From Rubeoparvulum massiliense (GTDB taxonomy: Bacteria; Bacillota; Bacilli; Rubeoparvulales; Rubeoparvulaceae), in assembly GCF_001049895.1 (NCBI RefSeq), contig NZ_CVPE01000006.1, positions 62,001 through 126,000 on the forward strand: DNA of 64,000 bases, given 5' to 3'. Both the position numbers and the translations under genes were made by a program. The notes beneath the pieces are model-generated. The model was not told the DNA's origin. It saw only the letters and a program-made list of their open reading frames with translations, and did no database searches. Shown here piece by piece: positions 1,690-21,449 of this stretch (positions are counted from its first letter, which is position 1; every line of letters begins with the position of its first letter).

Positions 1690-1818
1690 GAAACTGGAAT
1701 ATCTACCGAGGGAAGGACATGAGCTGAACCTCAATCAGTAGATATACAGCCAGTAGCGATAGAAGAGATTAAAATGAAGTTTTTCTTCGTTTAATTTTCT
1801 ATTGCTGCTGGTTTTTTT
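1690..1818 (+). ncRNA. Candidate cis-acting leader RNA (riboswitch or antiterminator type), class not recognised
   Basis: Transcription from the promoter at 1637-1664 would give a leader of about 180 nt. The first structure is a closed stem: ATATCTAC (1699-1706) pairs with GTAGATAT (1738-1745), enclosing GAGG (1708-1711)/CCTC (1729-1732). ACTGG (1693-1697) can extend this stem by pairing with CCAGT (1750-1754), which is also the base of the terminator 5' arm. The two states are therefore mutually exclusive: the extended stem would prevent termination. It does not show the conserved motifs of T-box, FMN, TPP, SAM, purine, lysine, glycine, preQ1 or ykkC leaders known to me. Ligand or protein partner is unknown. 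Confidence 0.5.
1750..1818 (+). terminator. Intrinsic terminator (attenuator) in the leader of the homogentisate operon
   Basis: CCAGTAGCGATAGAA (1750-1764) pairs with TTCTATTGCTGCTGG (1797-1811) over 15 bp with two G-U pairs. A second, coaxial stem follows inside (1769-1779 with 1785-1794). Seven T residues (1812-1818) follow the base. It lies after the promoter and 35 bases before the first gene start, so it can only act as an attenuator. Confidence 0.85.
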
Positions 1819-2912: not shown

Positions 2913-3467
2913 ATGATGGAGCTTCTCGGTATCTCCGGTACAATTGTTGGCGTAAAAACAGCTATTCTCGTCCAAACCGTTCTAGATGAAGTAAAGAAAC
3001 AACATCCTGAGATTAAAACAAAAATGTTAGATCTAAGGGATTATGACCTGCAGTTCTGTGATGGCAGAAGTGTGAGCGATTATAACGAGGACACTAGGCT
3101 AGTCATTCAAGCAGTGACTGAAGCTGATTTTTATCTAATTGGCACACCGGTTTTCAATTGTTCCATTCCTGCCCCATTAAAAAACCTCATTGATCTAATC
3201 CAACCAACAGTTTTTCGTCATAAGGTGATGGGCTTTGTCGCTAATGGTGGAACATACCAACACTATTTAATGATTGAAAATCAATTGAAGCCCATTGCTT
3301 CTTACTTACGTGCTTATATTGCACCAAGCTATGTCTATGCCAACGTGAGTCATTTCAATGAGCATAACGAGATCGATGATTTGGAGATTGTAACACGTAT
3401 TCAACACTTAGCAGATGAATTGGTTCATATGCAAAAGAGGCTGGGTCAACCACTGGTTACACAATGA
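2913..3467 (+). CDS. NAD(P)H-dependent FMN reductase, flavodoxin-like fold
   Basis: 184 residues. The N-terminal GISGTIVGVKTA loop is the phosphate-binding loop of the NADPH-dependent FMN reductase family (SsuE/ArsH-type). IGTPVFNCSIPAPLKNLIDL at about residues 75-95 is the family's flavin-side signature. It would provide reduced FMN to the flavin monooxygenase encoded just upstream. The start is either of two adjacent ATGs (2913 or 2916) after an AAAGGAG site. Length agrees with SsuE-like reductases. Role in aromatic catabolism is inferred from operon position. Confidence 0.85.
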   Translation: MMELLGISGTIVGVKTAILVQTVLDEVKKQHPEIKTKMLDLRDYDLQFCDGRSVSDYNEDTRLVIQAVTEADFYLIGTPVFNCSIPAPLKNLIDLIQPTVFRHKVMGFVANGGTYQHYLMIENQLKPIASYLRAYIAPSYVYANVSHFNEHNEIDDLEIVTRIQHLADELVHMQKRLGQPLVTQ

Positions 3468-3505: not shown

Positions 3506-4462
3506 ATGAAAGGTCTACCAAGCCTTCACGCCTTTTTAAGCCACTTGATCGATTATGCAGGCCTTTTTCCACCTGCCAATTTAGAATTAGATGCTGCCAT
3601 TCAAAATCACTTCAAATATGTTACGAGTGAAGATTCGTGGATATTGGGCCCATTCATTATCCCAATTACGAAAATCCATGAGCTTCAAGCCTATGCAGAT
3701 TTATATAAAGATCATCAAGTACTAAGACTCTCAGTTGTCGGTCGTAAAAGTGGAACAGAAGCTGAGTGCTTACTTCAACTTCAGGAAGATTTAGAACAGA
3801 TTCAATATTTTATGAACCAGCAACAAGATTGGGTAAAGGTTGAAACATTGGAAGTACCCTTGCCACCCATTGTACCAAGTCAGTATTTACTACAGAAAAT
3901 GATGGATGGGGCAAAGAGGATTGGTGTGAATCTATTCTGCGAGGTAGCTTTTCTTGAAAGAGATGATTGGCACCAATATCTCACCAATAGTATCGAAGCA
4001 ATCACTCATTTCAACGCTACACACCATGAGCCACTAGGTGTAAAAATTCGAACAGGTGGCATAAAAGCAGAGATGATACCGAGTACCAAACAGGTTGCTC
4101 AGGGGATCTCATTATGTAGTCAAAGAAAACTACCACTAAAATTCACGGCAGGATTACATCATCCTATTCGTATGTACAGGGATGAGGTTCATGCGGAAAT
4201 GCATGGTTTCCTCAACATATTCATGGCAAGTATGCTCGCTTATCATTACAGTCTTGATGCCGATGTGATTGAAGATATTATCTCTGATGAACGAGATGAT
4301 CACTTCGTCATCCACGATGATCACTTAGCTTGGAAAGAACTTCACCTTACTTCTCAAGAAGTGAGAGCGCTGCGAAATCAATTTGTTCGATCATTTGGGA
4401 GCTGCAGCTTTGATGAACCAAGAGACGAATTACTGGAACTACTCAATAAAAGGGGGCCATGA
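3506..4462 (+). CDS. Conserved protein of unknown function linked to fumarylacetoacetase
   Basis: 318 residues. I recognise the opening pattern (LIDYAGLFPPANL...A...Y..Y...DSWILGPFIIP) from uncharacterised proteins often encoded beside fumarylacetoacetase, but no function is known to me. Alternating strand-helix blocks, with GVNLFCEVAF, GVKIRTGG and LPLKFTAGLHHP near the expected barrel strand ends, suggest a TIM-barrel-like fold; His and Arg residues in the last two motifs could bind a carboxylated substrate. The TGA at 4460-4462 is one base before the GTG of fumarylacetoacetase, so the two are translationally coupled. The operon lacks a glutathione-type maleylacetoacetate isomerase, leaving that step open for this protein. 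Confidence 0.75.
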   Translation: MKGLPSLHAFLSHLIDYAGLFPPANLELDAAIQNHFKYVTSEDSWILGPFIIPITKIHELQAYADLYKDHQVLRLSVVGRKSGTEAECLLQLQEDLEQIQYFMNQQQDWVKVETLEVPLPPIVPSQYLLQKMMDGAKRIGVNLFCEVAFLERDDWHQYLTNSIEAITHFNATHHEPLGVKIRTGGIKAEMIPSTKQVAQGISLCSQRKLPLKFTAGLHHPIRMYRDEVHAEMHGFLNIFMASMLAYHYSLDADVIEDIISDERDDHFVIHDDHLAWKELHLTSQEVRALRNQFVRSFGSCSFDEPRDELLELLNKRGP

Positions 4463-4463
4463 G

Positions 4464-5765
4464 GTGAAATCATTTATTGCTGTGGATGAAAAATCTCACT
4501 TTCCGATTCAAAATCTACCATATGGTATATTTAGCAAGCAAGATGATCCACATCTTCGAGTAGGAGTAGCGATTGGCGATTATGTACTGGATTTATCCAT
4601 TCTTGAAGATAAGGGCTTCTATAAAGATGCGTTGGATCAGAATACGAGGGTATTTAATCGTTCTACACTTAATCCCTTGATGGAGCTTGGCCGAGATGTC
4701 TGGCGTAAAGTACGGAAAATTACGCAACAGTTACTGTCAGCTGATGAATCCCAACTCCGAGACAATATGGAGTTGCGTAAACAAGTACTTGTTCCAATGG
4801 AGAGTGTGAAACTCCATCTACCCGTCACCATTGGTGATTACACCGATTTTTATGCTTCGAAAGAGCATGCAATGAATGTAGGTACGATGTTTCGTGGGAA
4901 AGAGCATGCATTGATGCCGAACTGGGTCTATCTACCTGTGGGATACCACGGGAGAGCTAGTTCAGTTGTTCTCAGTGGCACTCGCATTCGCCGGCCTTGG
5001 GGTCAGATTAAATTAGCGGATCATCCGCCTATTTTTGCACCATGTAGACAGCTAGATTTTGAATTGGAAATCGGTTTTATTATGGGCACTGGAAATAAGC
5101 AAGGAGAACCGATTCCGATTGCAGAGGCTGAAGAACATCTCTTTGGAGCGGTATTGCTCAATGATTGGAGTGCCCGTGATATTCAGTCATGGGAGTACCA
5201 GCCACTGGGTCCCTTCTTAGGAAAAAATTTTGCTACTTCTATCTCTCCTTGGGTAATTCCTTTGGAAGCATTGGAACATTTTCGTGTCCAAGGACCCGTT
5301 CAAGATCCTGAGCCACTAGAGTATCTGCAACAAGGGCAACCAGGTTCATTTCACATTCAACTTGAAGTGCATCTCCGAAGTAAAGCGATGAATCATGCAA
5401 AACCAATCAGTGCAACCAATTATCGCTATTTATATTGGAGCATCGCTCAACAGATTGCTCATCATACTATTGGTGGATGTAATCTGAATCCTGGTGACTT
5501 ACTCGCTTCAGGTACCATTAGTGGACCCGAAAAAGAGACAAGGGGTAGCATGTTAGAATTAACCTGGCGAGGCGATGAACCGATCCACATCAATGAGGAA
5601 GAGACAAGGGAATGGCTGGAAGATGGAGATGAGCTAATCCTCACAGGATGGTGTCAAGGTGAGGGCTATCGTGTGGGCTTTGGCGAAGTGGTAGGAATCA
5701 TAGAACCAGCCCTAGCGAAGGATGAGGTCTTACGGAAGAAGGCTGTAACTGAGAATCATAAATAG
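4464..5765 (+). CDS. fahA: Fumarylacetoacetase
   Basis: 433 residues from the GTG at 4464. This start is preferred over in-frame ATGs further upstream because AGGGGG lies at the right distance and the protein then begins with the family-typical KSFIAVDE.SHFPIQNLPYG. It hydrolyses fumarylacetoacetate to fumarate and acetoacetate, the last step of tyrosine/homogentisate degradation. Visible active-site motifs: GDYTDFYASKEHAMNVG (metal Asp and catalytic His), LDFELEIGF (metal Glu pair), LNDWSARDIQ (metal Asp), LGPFLGKNF and ASGTISGPE (substrate loop). Length matches the single-domain-plus-SH3-like N-terminal family. Cytoplasmic. Confidence 0.95.
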   Translation: MKSFIAVDEKSHFPIQNLPYGIFSKQDDPHLRVGVAIGDYVLDLSILEDKGFYKDALDQNTRVFNRSTLNPLMELGRDVWRKVRKITQQLLSADESQLRDNMELRKQVLVPMESVKLHLPVTIGDYTDFYASKEHAMNVGTMFRGKEHALMPNWVYLPVGYHGRASSVVLSGTRIRRPWGQIKLADHPPIFAPCRQLDFELEIGFIMGTGNKQGEPIPIAEAEEHLFGAVLLNDWSARDIQSWEYQPLGPFLGKNFATSISPWVIPLEALEHFRVQGPVQDPEPLEYLQQGQPGSFHIQLEVHLRSKAMNHAKPISATNYRYLYWSIAQQIAHHTIGGCNLNPGDLLASGTISGPEKETRGSMLELTWRGDEPIHINEEETREWLEDGDELILTGWCQGEGYRVGFGEVVGIIEPALAKDEVLRKKAVTENHK

Positions 5766-5788
5766 TTTGATGAGGAGGGCTTCGATTC

Positions 5789-6952
5789 ATGGCAAGGTAT
5801 CATCAAATGGGAACAATCCCGCAAAAAAGGCACTCGGTTTTTCGAAAAGAGGATCAAACCTTATATCGAGAGCAAGTCATGGGTACGAAAGGATTTTCAG
5901 GTATTCAATCGATCCTGTATCATCAACATCCTCCGACCCAGTTTTTCAAATCTAGTTTATTTGGTCATTGCAGTATAGAGTTCGAAGAGCCAAGTGTACT
6001 TCGCCCACGTCACTTTTATACGGATCGTGTAAACAAAAAGCTCCATGATGCTGTGATGGGAAGGGAATACATCCTTGGGAATGAAGATTTGTTCATTGGG
6101 GTTGTTAATCCTACGGAGTCGATGGAGTATTTTTACCGTAATAGTAATGGCGATGAACTTCTGTTTGTTCATCGTGGTACGGGAAAAATTGAGTCAATAT
6201 TCGGAACTCTTCACTATCAACCTGGCGACTATCTTGTGATTCCTATTGGTACCATTTATCGCATAGAACCGACCACAGAGGATTCGAAGTTTCTGGTAAT
6301 TGAGACGAATAGTTGGATTACAACACCTAAGAGATACAGAAATGAGTTTGGTCAACTCCTTGAGCATAGTCCTTTCTGCGAAAGAGATATCCACGGTCCT
6401 GAAAAGCTTGTCACCCATACAGAACAGGGAGAGTACGAGGTTCGAACAAAGTCAGGAGAGTATCTACATTCCCATTTTTATGAGCATCATCCTCTTGATG
6501 TTGTAGGTTGGGATGGTTTCTTATATCCTTGGAAACTCAATATAGCTGACTTTGAGCCTATTACAGGGCGTATTCATCAGCCACCACCTGTTCATCAGAC
6601 CTTTGAAGGTCATAATTTTGTTGTTTGCTCATTTGTTCCACGCTTATATGATTATCATCCTGAGGCCATTCCTGCACCTTTCTATCATAGCAATATTGAT
6701 AGTGATGAGGTTTTGTATTACGTGGAAGGAAATTTTATGAGTCGGAAGGGAATTCAAGCAGAATCGCTGACACTTCACCCAGCTGGTATTCCCCATGGTC
6801 CACATCCAGGAAAAGTGGAAGAGAGTATCGGTAAGAAAGAGACTTTCGAGCTTGCTGTGATGATTGATACATTTCGTCCTTTAAAGGTTGTTCAAACGGA
6901 GCAGCAACTTGAAGATGGAGGCTATCAATATAGCTGGCTTGAGAAACGCTAG
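5789..6952 (+). CDS. hmgA: Homogentisate 1,2-dioxygenase
   Basis: 387 residues, shorter than the roughly 440 of human and pseudomonad enzymes but typical of the Gram-positive branch. It opens the ring of homogentisate with O2 and Fe(II) to give maleylacetoacetate. Cupin strands are visible; iron-ligand regions are FYHSNIDSDEVLYYVEG (His and acidic residues) and GIPHGPHPG (His), equivalent to YHRNCMSE and TPHGP of the human enzyme. It follows fumarylacetoacetase by 23 bases with a GAGGAGG site. Together with the upstream genes it forms a homogentisate degradation operon; no 4-hydroxyphenylpyruvate dioxygenase is present in the window. Confidence 0.95.
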   Translation: MARYHQMGTIPQKRHSVFRKEDQTLYREQVMGTKGFSGIQSILYHQHPPTQFFKSSLFGHCSIEFEEPSVLRPRHFYTDRVNKKLHDAVMGREYILGNEDLFIGVVNPTESMEYFYRNSNGDELLFVHRGTGKIESIFGTLHYQPGDYLVIPIGTIYRIEPTTEDSKFLVIETNSWITTPKRYRNEFGQLLEHSPFCERDIHGPEKLVTHTEQGEYEVRTKSGEYLHSHFYEHHPLDVVGWDGFLYPWKLNIADFEPITGRIHQPPPVHQTFEGHNFVVCSFVPRLYDYHPEAIPAPFYHSNIDSDEVLYYVEGNFMSRKGIQAESLTLHPAGIPHGPHPGKVEESIGKKETFELAVMIDTFRPLKVVQTEQQLEDGGYQYSWLEKR

Positions 6953-6978: not shown

Positions 6979-8319
6979 ATGAGTCAAATTGTACAGGAAG
7001 TGCCACAAGCGAAAGCAGTTGAGGCTTCAAAGGCTGGAGTTCCCCCATCCTTAATGTATTTCATTCTGTTCATCTGCTTTTTCTGTATCTTAGCAGATGG
7101 TTACGATTTGGGTATTTATGGTGCAGTGCTTCCTAGTCTATTAGATTATCAACCATGGGGCTTATCAGCAGCTCAAGCAGGAGCCATTGGCAGCTATCCG
7201 CTCTTTGGTATGTTGATCGGTGCCATCTGCATAGGCACCAGTACCGATGTGCTAGGAAGAAAATGGACCTTAGTCGTGTGTGTGAGTCTTTTTTCGATTA
7301 CGATGATCATCTGCGCATTGGCTACATCGCCGGGAATATTTGGTCTATTTCGTTTTATCGGAGGCATTGGTTTAGGTGGTGTGATTCCTACTGCATCTGC
7401 ACTTGTCATTGAATATTCTCCATCCCATCGTCGTTCTCTAAATTATGTGCTAATGTTTTCTGGTTACTCATTTGGTACTGTACTTGGTGCGGTCTTAGCT
7501 ATTTTATTACTCGATTCGTTCGGCTGGAGGGGAATGTTTTGGATTGGTGGACTACCATTACTAATCGTTCCAGTAATGATAAAATACTTACCTGAATCGG
7601 TTAGCTTTCTCTTAACTCGACAGCGTGAAGAGGAGGCAAAACAGATTTGCCAACGTTATCAAATTGATCTATCTTTTTTCACAGAGCAAATTAGCAAAGA
7701 GGATCAGCAGTCCAGCAAGAAGAAACAGTCTGTCCAAGTACTTTTCTCAACTAATTATCTGAGAGCAACCTTATTTTTCTGGCTAACCTATATCATGGGC
7801 TTTTATTTAGTCTATGGTCTCAATACTTGGCTACCACAAATTATGCGAGAATTAGGTTATTCACTCAATTCGAGCTTATCATTTTTGCTAGTGATGAATC
7901 TGACAGCAGGAGTAGGGGCATTACTAGCTGGTTCGATCGCTGATCGCTGGGGTTCCAAGCGAGTGATTGCCATCTCTTATTCGCTTGCTTCTGTAAGCGC
8001 TTTCCTACTAACTCTCGGTGCTCCACCTATTGTAGTCACATATTTACTAGTGGGAATTGCAGGCTTTGGTTCTGTAGGTAATACACAAATATTGAATGCT
8101 TTTGTTTCCAAGTATTATCCAGCGCAGGCAAGGGCGACGGCATTAGGATGGGGACTTGGCATTGGTAGGATTGGTGCAATTTCTGGACCGTTGCTCATCG
8201 GTTTCCTCGTTAGCCTCAAGGTCGATTTCATCTGGAGTTTTTATACATTTGTGATAGCAGGTTTTATTGCTGCTATGGGGATGATATTTATACCAGCGAA
8301 GAAGGGCGAAGTGGTGTAG
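6979..8319 (+). CDS. MFS transporter, aromatic acid:H+ symporter type
   Basis: 446 residues with about 12 transmembrane segments split by a hydrophilic loop near residue 230. The first helix carries ADGYDLGIYGAVLP, the D-G-Y/F-D signature of aromatic acid:proton symporters such as PcaK and BenK. The loop-2 motif is GTSTDVLGRKWT and the loop-8 motif is AGSIADRWGSKR. As the last gene of the homogentisate operon (26 bases after hmgA, followed by a strong terminator), it probably imports homogentisate, a hydroxyphenylacetate or a related aromatic acid. The exact substrate cannot be read from sequence. Confidence 0.88.
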   Translation: MSQIVQEVPQAKAVEASKAGVPPSLMYFILFICFFCILADGYDLGIYGAVLPSLLDYQPWGLSAAQAGAIGSYPLFGMLIGAICIGTSTDVLGRKWTLVVCVSLFSITMIICALATSPGIFGLFRFIGGIGLGGVIPTASALVIEYSPSHRRSLNYVLMFSGYSFGTVLGAVLAILLLDSFGWRGMFWIGGLPLLIVPVMIKYLPESVSFLLTRQREEEAKQICQRYQIDLSFFTEQISKEDQQSSKKKQSVQVLFSTNYLRATLFFWLTYIMGFYLVYGLNTWLPQIMRELGYSLNSSLSFLLVMNLTAGVGALLAGSIADRWGSKRVIAISYSLASVSAFLLTLGAPPIVVTYLLVGIAGFGSVGNTQILNAFVSKYYPAQARATALGWGLGIGRIGAISGPLLIGFLVSLKVDFIWSFYTFVIAGFIAAMGMIFIPAKKGEVV

Positions 8320-8574: not shown

Positions 8575-10332
8575 ATGAAAAAACAGATCATCGTTCTACT
8601 ACTTATGATTTTTTTAATTGCACCCCAGGTTAACGCAGAGTCTGCCCTGACAGATATTAACGGTCATTGGGCGGAGTCGAATATTCAGAACTTAGTAGGG
8701 TTAAACATTATCTCAGGTTATCCAGATTCAACCTTTCGCCCAGATCAAAATATATCGAGGGCAGCCTTTGTTAAAATATTGATCATCGCTTCTGAAAATA
8801 TTGAGAAGTATGATACGACATTAGAGAAGAGCGTTTTCAATGACGTCTCTCAATCTTACTGGGGCTATCCATATATTATGAAAGCTGTTGAGAAGGGGAT
8901 CATTATTCCTAGTGATTACCCTAATTCATCCTTTTCTCCTGATACAAACATCACTCGTTTAGAGATGGCCATGATGGTTTCACGATTGCTTGGGAATGAT
9001 ACGAATACCCTTCAAGCTGAATTTACAGACAATAATCAAATCCCTGCATATGCTCTAAAGAATGTTTCTCTTGTAGTTAATAAAGGGATCATTCAAGGGT
9101 TTCCAGATGGATCATTTGCTCCTTATAGTCCAGCAACAAGAGCACAAGCAACTGTAATCATCGAGCGTTATCTCAATCATATAAGTCAAAATTCTAGCAA
9201 TCTAAGCAATCCAACAGATCCTAAAATTGAGAATCCAGTCGATAAAGGGGGCAATGCCGAGTTATCAGCAAAAGATATCGTAGCACGTAATGATAATAAG
9301 GTTGTCCTAATCAAAATCTTTGATGAAGCTCAACGTGAAATTAGTGGTGGAAGTGGTGTTTTTGTCAAAGAGGGCATACTCGTAACCAATTATCATGTAA
9401 TCGAGGGAGCAAGCTATGCGGTTATTAATACTGTAGACAATAGCACTTATGCCATTGAAGGCGTGGTTGCTTATGATCCAGAAAAGGACTTAGCTCTGAT
9501 AAAGACAACCACTCTTCCCAAGATTGCACCTGTAACCATTGGGAATGCTGGTAAGCTAAGTAAGGGAGATAAAATTATTACGATAGGTAGTCCTTATGGT
9601 CTGAAGAATACTGTCTCAGAAGGATTAGTAAGTGGATTTCGAAATGATGGTTATGTTGACTTAATTCAAATTAATGCACCTATCGATCATGGAAGTTCGG
9701 GCGGGGGATTATTTAATACTAGAGGGGAGCTTGTCGGAATCACTTCATCTGGTAATACCACAAGCGTGGCGGATTTAAATTTTGCGATTCCGATTAATTA
9801 TATCAATTCCTGGCTATCTGATTTAACTAATAAGAGATTCGCAAATATTGCTTCTACTTCACTGGCTGACTTTAATCCGTCTCAAGTGAATTACGAAATG
9901 GAAGAAGTAAATGAAGAAAACCTTCAACGATTATCAGACATATTAACTGAGTATGTTTCAGTCATTGAAACCTCAGAGGGAAACATTTATCTGAGTCAAT
10001 ATGATGCGTTTTTTCTTGATGACAATAGTACAATCGGAATTAATGCTGCAATCGATTTAGAAAATTACAAGTTTTACATTACCAACTTTGATGCAATATA
10101 TGAGGATTTATCAAATTATGCCTATGAGATGGGTACATTTTTCAATGAGGTTTTTCCAAATAAAAACTATAGTTTTATACTTTTCTTTCAAGATTATTCT
10201 TCTATCTTTCCTTCTGTTTTTGATCCGTCAGATTACGATTATATCCCAGAGAAAGATAGTTGGCTGATTACACATGCGATTATTAAGGTGGCAAAAATTG
10301 ATGGTCAGTTCTATGGAGATATTCTACCATAA
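8575..10332 (+). CDS. Secreted SLH-anchored trypsin-like (S1C/HtrA-type) serine protease
   Basis: 585 residues. A signal peptide (residues 1-21, ending VNA) is followed by three S-layer homology repeats (about 25-70, 85-135, 150-200; e.g. HWAESNIQNLVGLNIISGYPD), then a Ser/Asn-rich linker (205-225) and a trypsin-like domain (about 232-415). The catalytic triad is His274 (TNYHV), Asp305 (DLALIK) and Ser375 (GSSGGG). The last 165 residues form an acidic aromatic-rich domain I do not recognise; the PDZ domain usual for HtrA is absent. It is expected on the cell surface, bound to secondary wall polymer. A monocistronic unit, preceded by a 255-base gap with no clear structure. Confidence 0.9.
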   Translation: MKKQIIVLLLMIFLIAPQVNAESALTDINGHWAESNIQNLVGLNIISGYPDSTFRPDQNISRAAFVKILIIASENIEKYDTTLEKSVFNDVSQSYWGYPYIMKAVEKGIIIPSDYPNSSFSPDTNITRLEMAMMVSRLLGNDTNTLQAEFTDNNQIPAYALKNVSLVVNKGIIQGFPDGSFAPYSPATRAQATVIIERYLNHISQNSSNLSNPTDPKIENPVDKGGNAELSAKDIVARNDNKVVLIKIFDEAQREISGGSGVFVKEGILVTNYHVIEGASYAVINTVDNSTYAIEGVVAYDPEKDLALIKTTTLPKIAPVTIGNAGKLSKGDKIITIGSPYGLKNTVSEGLVSGFRNDGYVDLIQINAPIDHGSSGGGLFNTRGELVGITSSGNTTSVADLNFAIPINYINSWLSDLTNKRFANIASTSLADFNPSQVNYEMEEVNEENLQRLSDILTEYVSVIETSEGNIYLSQYDAFFLDDNSTIGINAAIDLENYKFYITNFDAIYEDLSNYAYEMGTFFNEVFPNKNYSFILFFQDYSSIFPSVFDPSDYDYIPEKDSWLITHAIIKVAKIDGQFYGDILP

Positions 10333-21185: not shown

Positions 21186-21449
21186 TTCCCTCAGGTAGTA
21201 AGGACGTTCTGCTTAATCGTAGAGAATTAGTCACATTCAACTCTTAAATCCAATGGAAAACCCGTACGACACGCTTATAATATAAAATATTGGAATAAGA
21301 TTTGACCTATTATGCCAACAATTGAATATCTCCGAGCTTTTCATCCTAAAGGATTCCAATGGATGGATCGCCTGAGCTGTCTGCTCACAGGGTATGATTG
21401 GAAACAGTTATACCTCCCGTTTTGGAAAGGAGAAAGGATTCTACATAGG

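Follow-up and report, generated by a model that had tools for sequence, protein, structure and literature searches.

What decides whether the operon starting at position 1854 is transcribed is the question raised by this part of the window (the whole analysed stretch of 64,000 nt of Rubeoparvulum massiliense DNA). The operon follows an RNA leader with two competing structures, which a sequence-only reading of the locus had taken for an RNA that senses a ligand or binds an antiterminator protein. Just upstream of the leader lies a gene that this reading did not include: it encodes a DUF3870 protein of 115 aa (1299–1646, + strand; PF12986, 61.1 bits against a cut-off of 22), the sole DUF3870 match in the source genome (G000) and our candidate for the antiterminator protein.

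The leader RNA and its operon

The antiterminator hairpin (1693–1754, + strand) is closed by ACUGG (1693–1697) paired with CCAGU (1750–1754), inside which lie P1 (AUAUCUAC, 1699–1706, paired with GUAGAUAU, 1738–1745, both read directly from the window sequence) and, between the P1 strands, a variable P2. The same CCAGU opens the 5′ arm of an intrinsic terminator (1750–1818, + strand), the 3′ arm of which ends at 1811 and is followed by a T7 tail (1812–1818). The fold of 1685–1825 had an energy of −47.7 kcal/mol (z = −5.48), which none of 200 shuffled sequences equalled; the terminator alone reached −32.8 kcal/mol and the antiterminator alone −18.4 kcal/mol, compared with −47.7 kcal/mol for the full leader. 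When the transcript was folded as it grew, the CUGG:CCAG helix (1694–1697 with 1750–1753) had a probability of 0.95–0.99 in transcripts ending at 1756–1807 and of 0 from an end at 1810, and CCAG lay within the terminator from 1813. The antiterminator and the terminator are mutually exclusive, and the equilibrium favours the terminator. The stem at 1699–1706/1738–1745, its extension by ACTGG/CCAGT, and the exclusion of one structure by the other had all been proposed from the sequence and were borne out here, the antiterminator also by its homologues (see below). The terminator described in the same proposal (1750–1811, T7) does share CCAGT, but it is longer than the 15 bp given, with 17–18 pairs before the first internal loop.

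The promoter proposed for the leader is present as a sigma-A-like TTGCAA-16-TATAAT (1637–1664, + strand), within and just past the 3′ end of the DUF3870 gene; because 2.5 such hexamer pairs are expected by chance and one was found, the match alone is no proof. A cre-like site (CcpA box) with one mismatch to the consensus (1628–1641, + strand) overlaps the −35 hexamer. Downstream, the first controlled gene encodes an LLM flavin monooxygenase (1854–2894; PF00296, 205.6 bits). The genes that follow, likewise on the + strand, encode a member of the NADPH-dependent FMN reductase family (2913–3467; PF03358, 97.3 bits), a 318-aa protein without any Pfam or NCBIfam match at E 0.001 (3506–4462), a fumarylacetoacetase (listed ORF 4383–5765, of which the true start, by eye, is probably GTG 4464; TIGR01266, 599.5 bits against a cut-off of 375.3), a remotely homogentisate 1,2-dioxygenase-like (HmgA-like) protein (5789–6952; TIGR01015, 61.7 bits, below 510.75; PF20510, 47.5 bits, over 20.2), and an aromatic acid/H+ symport-like MFS transporter (6979–8319; TIGR00895, 330.5 bits, below 418.55; PF07690, 216.6 bits). 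The earlier assignment to tyrosine/homogentisate catabolism fits the fumarylacetoacetase, which scores well over its cut-off, but the HmgA-like match is only remote, and the name is reasonable rather than proven. Elsewhere around the operon, the window carries a NERD-domain protein gene (221–949, − strand; PF08378, 84.9 bits) and a long ORF (8575–10332, + strand) in which SLH repeats followed by a trypsin-like serine protease can be seen by eye.

The leader had been said to carry no known riboswitch or T-box motif, and the Rfam 15 covariance search agrees: at E values up to 10, the window leader matched only eukaryotic miRNA and snoRNA models (E 0.8–5.9), far under their gathering scores, and no match at the gathering threshold fell on a leader in the window or in 38 loci (20 + 18, scanned whole) of five leader types. 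That the leader belongs to a described class, such as the T-box or a known riboswitch, has no supporting point among our results, and with nothing except noise up to E 10 its probability is practically negligible. Two matches in the scanned loci, both riboswitches, lie elsewhere in L037 of Aneurinibacillus thermoaerophilus: one, an azaaromatic (yjdF) riboswitch (5779–5898, + strand), follows the monooxygenase gene at a distance of about 1.8 kb, and the other, a c-di-AMP riboswitch (528–654, + strand), is located upstream in the same locus. The window itself has a molybdenum cofactor/tungsten riboswitch (RF01055) at 21318–21448 (+ strand; 90.9 bits, gathering score 36).

Covariation in homologous leaders

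Leaders before related monooxygenase genes could be aligned with that of the window; they come from Bacillus, Cytobacillus, Siminovitchia, Sporosarcina, Aneurinibacillus, Brevibacillus, and further genomes. A covariance model (R1) trained on 15 such leaders, which were selected by the downstream monooxygenase and not by DUF3870, matched 23 places in 15 of 398 Bacilli genomes; we designate these RNAs type A. Additional genomes from the families of G055, G086, and G126 (2, 39, and 11 genomes) yielded no new type A places. Covariation in homologous leaders, the check that the sequence-only reading had called for, was present: in 36 aligned matches (31 distinct), 95.3% of the pair cells were standard pairs, and changes on both sides occurred at 14 of 17 pairs. 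For the 31 distinct leaders, none of 500 shuffles gave covariation as high, and slid controls came nowhere near. This alignment leans towards the structure because it was fitted to it; in a free MAFFT alignment of the 15 leaders, both-side changes occurred at 11 of 16 pairs. The outer pair of the CUGG:CCAG helix is GC in 15 and AU in 13 of the 31 leaders, and compensatory change was also found in P1. The 3′ CCAG, or its counterpart, doubles as the base of the terminator in all 32 homologous leaders examined (the terminator arm drawn by the script was convincing in 30, and the terminators of L044 and L091 were located by eye).

A similar picture might arise if the DUF3870 gene simply ended in a normal terminator and a hairpin stood before it by chance, given that gene-end terminators are common. 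A scan for terminators with competing hairpins found them at 44 of 48 typed loci, but 22 of the 59 other loci and 19 of the 63 control ORF ends also had them; the scan was set aside as evidence because it is too unspecific, and the hairpins that it reported in L166 and L182 differed from the proposed antiterminator. The compensatory changes in the CUGG:CCAG helix and P1, however, bring the chance-hairpin reading close to refutation. It is further opposed by promoter-like pairs between the DUF3870 gene and the leader, at a similar place in several species, and by L038 of Aneurinibacillus danicus, in which two type A leaders stand in tandem before the monooxygenase gene (a weaker third match, 26.2 bits, precedes an MFS-like gene). 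We regard this explanation as very improbable.

The genes directly after type A RNAs, named from their sequences without a family search, include those for a monooxygenase, an ABC transporter binding protein, a RibF-like flavin kinase, an MFS transporter, an FAH-family protein, and a quinone-reductase-like protein, as well as the 318-aa family (the similar ORF, identified by eye, is first in L087). Cre-like sites with up to two mismatches lie upstream of 14 of 30 type A leaders, compared with 41 of 600 shuffles. Four loci with monooxygenase relatives (L039, L040, L006, and L010) had no R1 match, and no recognisable type A leader, directly before the gene; in L040 a terminator is present there, and no matching hairpin was seen by eye.

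DUF3870 genes beside several leader types

At 17 of the 23 type A places, a DUF3870 gene on the same strand ends between 2 nt inside the RNA and 86 nt before it, and among the places outside the R1 training set, an adjacent DUF3870 gene was found in 11 of 14. The other six type A places, which have no DUF3870 gene within 200 nt upstream, lie in G126 (two), G055 (two), G040, and G204, and each of these genomes has a DUF3870 gene elsewhere. In G055 and G126, the type A RNAs outnumber the DUF3870 genes next to them, in keeping with a trans-acting factor. Several species have a cre-like box and promoter-like sequences in the stretch that separates the DUF3870 gene from the leader. In others, such as the monooxygenase leaders L082, L094, L083, L085, and L084 (two Brevibacillus and three further genomes), the RNA begins 3–11 nt past the DUF3870 stop codon, so RNA polymerase could transcribe the regulator gene and reach the attenuator in a single transcript.

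Leaders of other types lie beside other DUF3870 genes. Type B leaders share the design of type A with a different sequence (CUG; P1, UUUAUUUAU/GUAARUAAA; P2; CCCAG with the terminator) and are located 3′ of a second DUF3870 subfamily, before dipeptide-permease-like or D-aminopeptidase-like genes in the loci that were read. The corresponding model, R2, matched 28 places in 28 of 398 genomes, and every one of them has a DUF3870 gene no more than 176 nt upstream (the largest gap, 176 nt, is that of L122, a locus at a contig end). Because the 11 training loci of R2 were all chosen 3′ of DUF3870, this linkage is partly circular; 17 of the 28 places lie outside the training set but are closely related to it. 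The 3′ arm of P2 was set one column off in R2, and no pair counts were drawn from this model.

Type C leaders were identified 3′ of members of the largest DUF3870 subfamily, about 100–200 nt beyond the gene. In nine sequences, 95.4% of the cells were paired, and both-side changes occurred at 7 of 17 pairs; in the shuffle test, 23 of 500 shuffles were as high for further pair types, and none of 500 for the other four measures. The model R3, with nine training loci likewise chosen 3′ of DUF3870, matched 22 places in 16 of 398 genomes. A DUF3870 gene lies 97–193 nt upstream at 11 of these places and about 1.8–1.9 kb upstream at three; at one the RNA precedes the DUF3870 gene, and seven stand apart. 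Outside the R3 training set, only 2 of 13 places have DUF3870 within 200 nt upstream. The first genes, read by eye, include gabT-like, gabD-like, permease-like, and CaiB-like genes, and an unidentified ORF with a recurrent start similar to KFVQKQAGYEV.PHP..R.YHI is first after 16 of the 22 type C RNAs (for example, L193, L194, and L203; by eye). The place at which the RNA precedes the gene is L214 (1501–1560, in G319), an arrangement that suggests autoregulation; two further type C RNAs (L204 and L209) are situated about 13 and 16 kb away on the same contig. L137, proposed by eye as a type C leader, was rejected on its single-sequence fold, which does not agree.

Two smaller types, D and E, were recognised from single-sequence folds alone. 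Type D overlaps the DUF3870 stop codon in L066, L067, L071, and L072, adjoins it in L047, and precedes DUF819-like or LD-carboxypeptidase-like genes; L072 folds only partly as proposed, and an alignment of the five leaders, in which L047 was misplaced, was left out of the counts. In the minimal type D hairpin of the four overlapping cases, the stop codon lies in the loop, so translation termination could affect the switch. Type E, based on the folds of L140, L151, L166, and L180, precedes CoA-transferase-like or thiolase-like genes; L182 had no antiterminator fold and was rejected. In cross-detection, R1 matched five type C leaders (E 1.2e−5 to 0.02) and R2 matched two type D leaders (E 0.0015 and 0.044); R3 matched the window leader weakly (18.4 bits, E 0.055), a score to be read beside the 17.9 bits that reverse strands of R3 training leaders reach. 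We read the leader types as a putative RNA superfamily.

All 48 genomes with any of the three modelled RNAs contain DUF3870, compared with 88 of the 299 sampled Bacilli genomes, a contrast that does not amount to a probability because the genomes are related; DUF3870 was found in none of 14 well-known control genomes, a set that includes Bacillus subtilis. On the DUF3870 tree, the RNA type follows the protein, with 13 label changes compared with 53.0 after shuffling, the type labels being partly assigned by eye (the count rose from 7 to 13 once 10 rows of the large clade were relabelled from "none" to type C and the type E label of L182 was corrected). Type B forms one clade (support 99/96), and the three DUF3870 genes of G104 are each followed by a different RNA type (L066, L156, and L079). 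No adjacent attenuator was recognised for 49 of the 108 tree rows, among which at least L160 is probably miscounted: R2 matches it at 553–618 (− strand; E 0.0049), 3′ of a DUF3870 gene, and a hairpin and a downstream CoA-transferase-like ORF are visible by eye. Both the co-occurrence and the agreement with the tree partly reflect simple inheritance of neighbourhoods.

The main rival to a protein effector is a metabolite-sensing riboswitch, in which a pathway compound would bind the P1/P2 junction and DUF3870 would be a neighbour with another role (enzyme, chaperone, or transport helper). The design and the covariation would suit a small riboswitch, conservation extends to some unpaired positions (for example, the A just 5′ of the P1 3′ strand is invariant in 15 of 15 leaders), and at half of the type C places no DUF3870 gene is close by. 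On the other hand, a riboswitch gives no account of DUF3870 genes beside unlike RNAs before aromatic, dipeptide, GABA-like, and CoA-transferase-like genes, nor of their presence in 48 of 48 genomes. The sequence of P1 also looks, by eye, better conserved than that of the P2 hairpin, a pattern no less suited to a protein target. We consider the riboswitch reading possible but unlikely. The attenuator that the sequence-only reading had proposed stands, outside Rfam and with covariation; that reading had left ligand and protein open as effectors, and the linkage to DUF3870 favours the protein.

The DUF3870 protein as a candidate antiterminator

We consider it rather probable that the DUF3870 protein encoded upstream is an antiterminator, which would hold the leader hairpin of an attenuator that is off by default. 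This reading builds on the mutually exclusive structures, the covariation of the antiterminator, the common CCAG, the linkage to DUF3870, and the leaders of this design that follow genes of other DUF3870 subfamilies and precede other operons. By default, the polymerase would first make the antiterminator hairpin (P1/P2 closed by CUGG:CCAG); the more stable terminator would then capture CCAG, and transcription would stop. The antiterminator hairpin is the probable target of DUF3870 in concert with a pathway metabolite; the bound protein would keep CCAG, the base of the terminator could not close, and the operon would be transcribed. We infer that the protein binds RNA, as the linkage suggests, responds to a ligand, and acts as an antiterminator.

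The same linkage data would suit a negative regulator, that is, a bound protein that disfavours the antiterminator and favours termination like PyrR or TRAP, with an inducer releasing it, and the sequence cannot tell the direction. However, folding by itself already yields the terminator, which makes the need for a positive factor the simpler assumption, and catabolic operons are usually induced. We regard negative regulation as improbable.

All 29 DUF3870 proteins compared match PF12986, which is the only Pfam match of the window protein. An AlphaFold2 model of DUF3870 built from a 12-sequence alignment (pLDDT 88.7, pTM 0.81) superseded a poor single-sequence model (pLDDT 45.5). In structure comparison, the best rows were IscU scaffold proteins (Z 8.5, which is middling on the scale; 95 residues, 3.1 Å), and the top Foldseek row was also IscU, at E 1.5e−3, with no row at E 0.001 or less. 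A sequence relation between DUF3870 and IscU was considered and dropped as not significant (yeast Isu1, E 0.56, among noise). The cluster ligands of IscU are cysteines; in contrast, the invariant and near-invariant columns of the 29 DUF3870 rows contain no cysteine, and the nearly invariant C33 is a feature of the 12 type A rows only and does not make a triad. For DUF3870, the prediction is a putative IscU-like fold that lacks the cysteine triad. Among the type A rows, K20, G21, F51, T56, N57, and A90 are invariant and P86 nearly so. The model places these residues in the loop that follows strand 1 and near the N-terminal ends of the first and last helices, the region in which IscU holds its cluster; as a guess, they may form a small-molecule site. 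We know of no RNA-binding protein with an IscU-like fold. PMC4387736 applies the name PF12986/DUF3870 to a C-terminal, beta-rich domain in a Bacteroides protein (PDB 3kog). This description does not fit the present Pfam model matched by these proteins, which points to another domain or a changed label, and 3kog is not among the PDB sequence matches of DUF3870.

The hut attenuator of Bacillus is among the closest known systems. Its regulator gene, hutP, precedes the attenuator, and the present loci show a similar order, in which catabolic genes follow the attenuator and the candidate regulator gene stands immediately before it. A nearby upstream DUF3870 gene was counted at 17 of 23 type A places, at all 28 of type B, and at 11 of 22 of type C. 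The proteins differ: DUF3870 proteins match PF12986 and not PF09021 (HutP), and their predicted fold is IscU-like. The 14 families listed for the 29 DUF3870 proteins (E up to 10) did not include PF09021, the source genome has no PF09021 match, and the conserved NAG clusters of the HutP system were not seen by eye. A resemblance between DUF3870 and the C-terminal portion of HutP, an early guess, was abandoned, given the lack of a Pfam match to HutP and the IscU proteins as best PDB rows; HutP is also missing from the structure-comparison lists, an absence that by itself excludes nothing. HutP is described in PMC7430163 as a small protein that lets transcription pass the hut terminator, and LicT/SacY as proteins that stabilise an imperfect hairpin that excludes the terminator. 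The role proposed for DUF3870, as a protein stabilising a terminator-excluding hairpin, would be like that of HutP or LicT/SacY but filled by another protein family; unlike LicT, the window protein, with its 115 aa and PF12986 only, has neither an RNA-binding domain of the LicT kind nor PRD domains. Any likeness to the IscU/SufU scaffold would lie in the predicted fold and ends at the Fe–S ligand cysteines, which are not conserved. Terminating riboswitches have the same on/off geometry with exclusive hairpins; in contrast to them, the present leaders have no Rfam match and are linked to one protein family. What the loci share with protein-dependent attenuation in general is the pair of mutually exclusive terminator and antiterminator.

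Protein-dependent attenuation is known as a kind; this RNA family and DUF3870 as a regulator were not found in the open-licence literature searched, and the RNA is also absent from Rfam 15. We give an even chance to the wider proposal that DUF3870 proteins are metabolite-responsive RNA-binding antiterminators with an IscU-like fold, in which the metal-cluster site would have turned into a small-molecule site, and that their subfamilies have co-evolved with their own hairpin-terminator RNAs and control catabolic operons of several kinds (aromatic, dipeptide, GABA, CoA-transferase, and others) across Bacilli. Were the RNAs riboswitches instead, they would make up a superfamily with several ligands. 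The present results provide a testable function for DUF3870, a domain of unknown function present in 88 of 299 sampled Bacilli genomes; its absence from the 14 well-known control genomes may be why it has gone unstudied. If the proposal is true, one more protein family would join the few RNA-binding antiterminators, and the leaders would predict the regulons, and hence the inducers, of several little-studied catabolic pathways.
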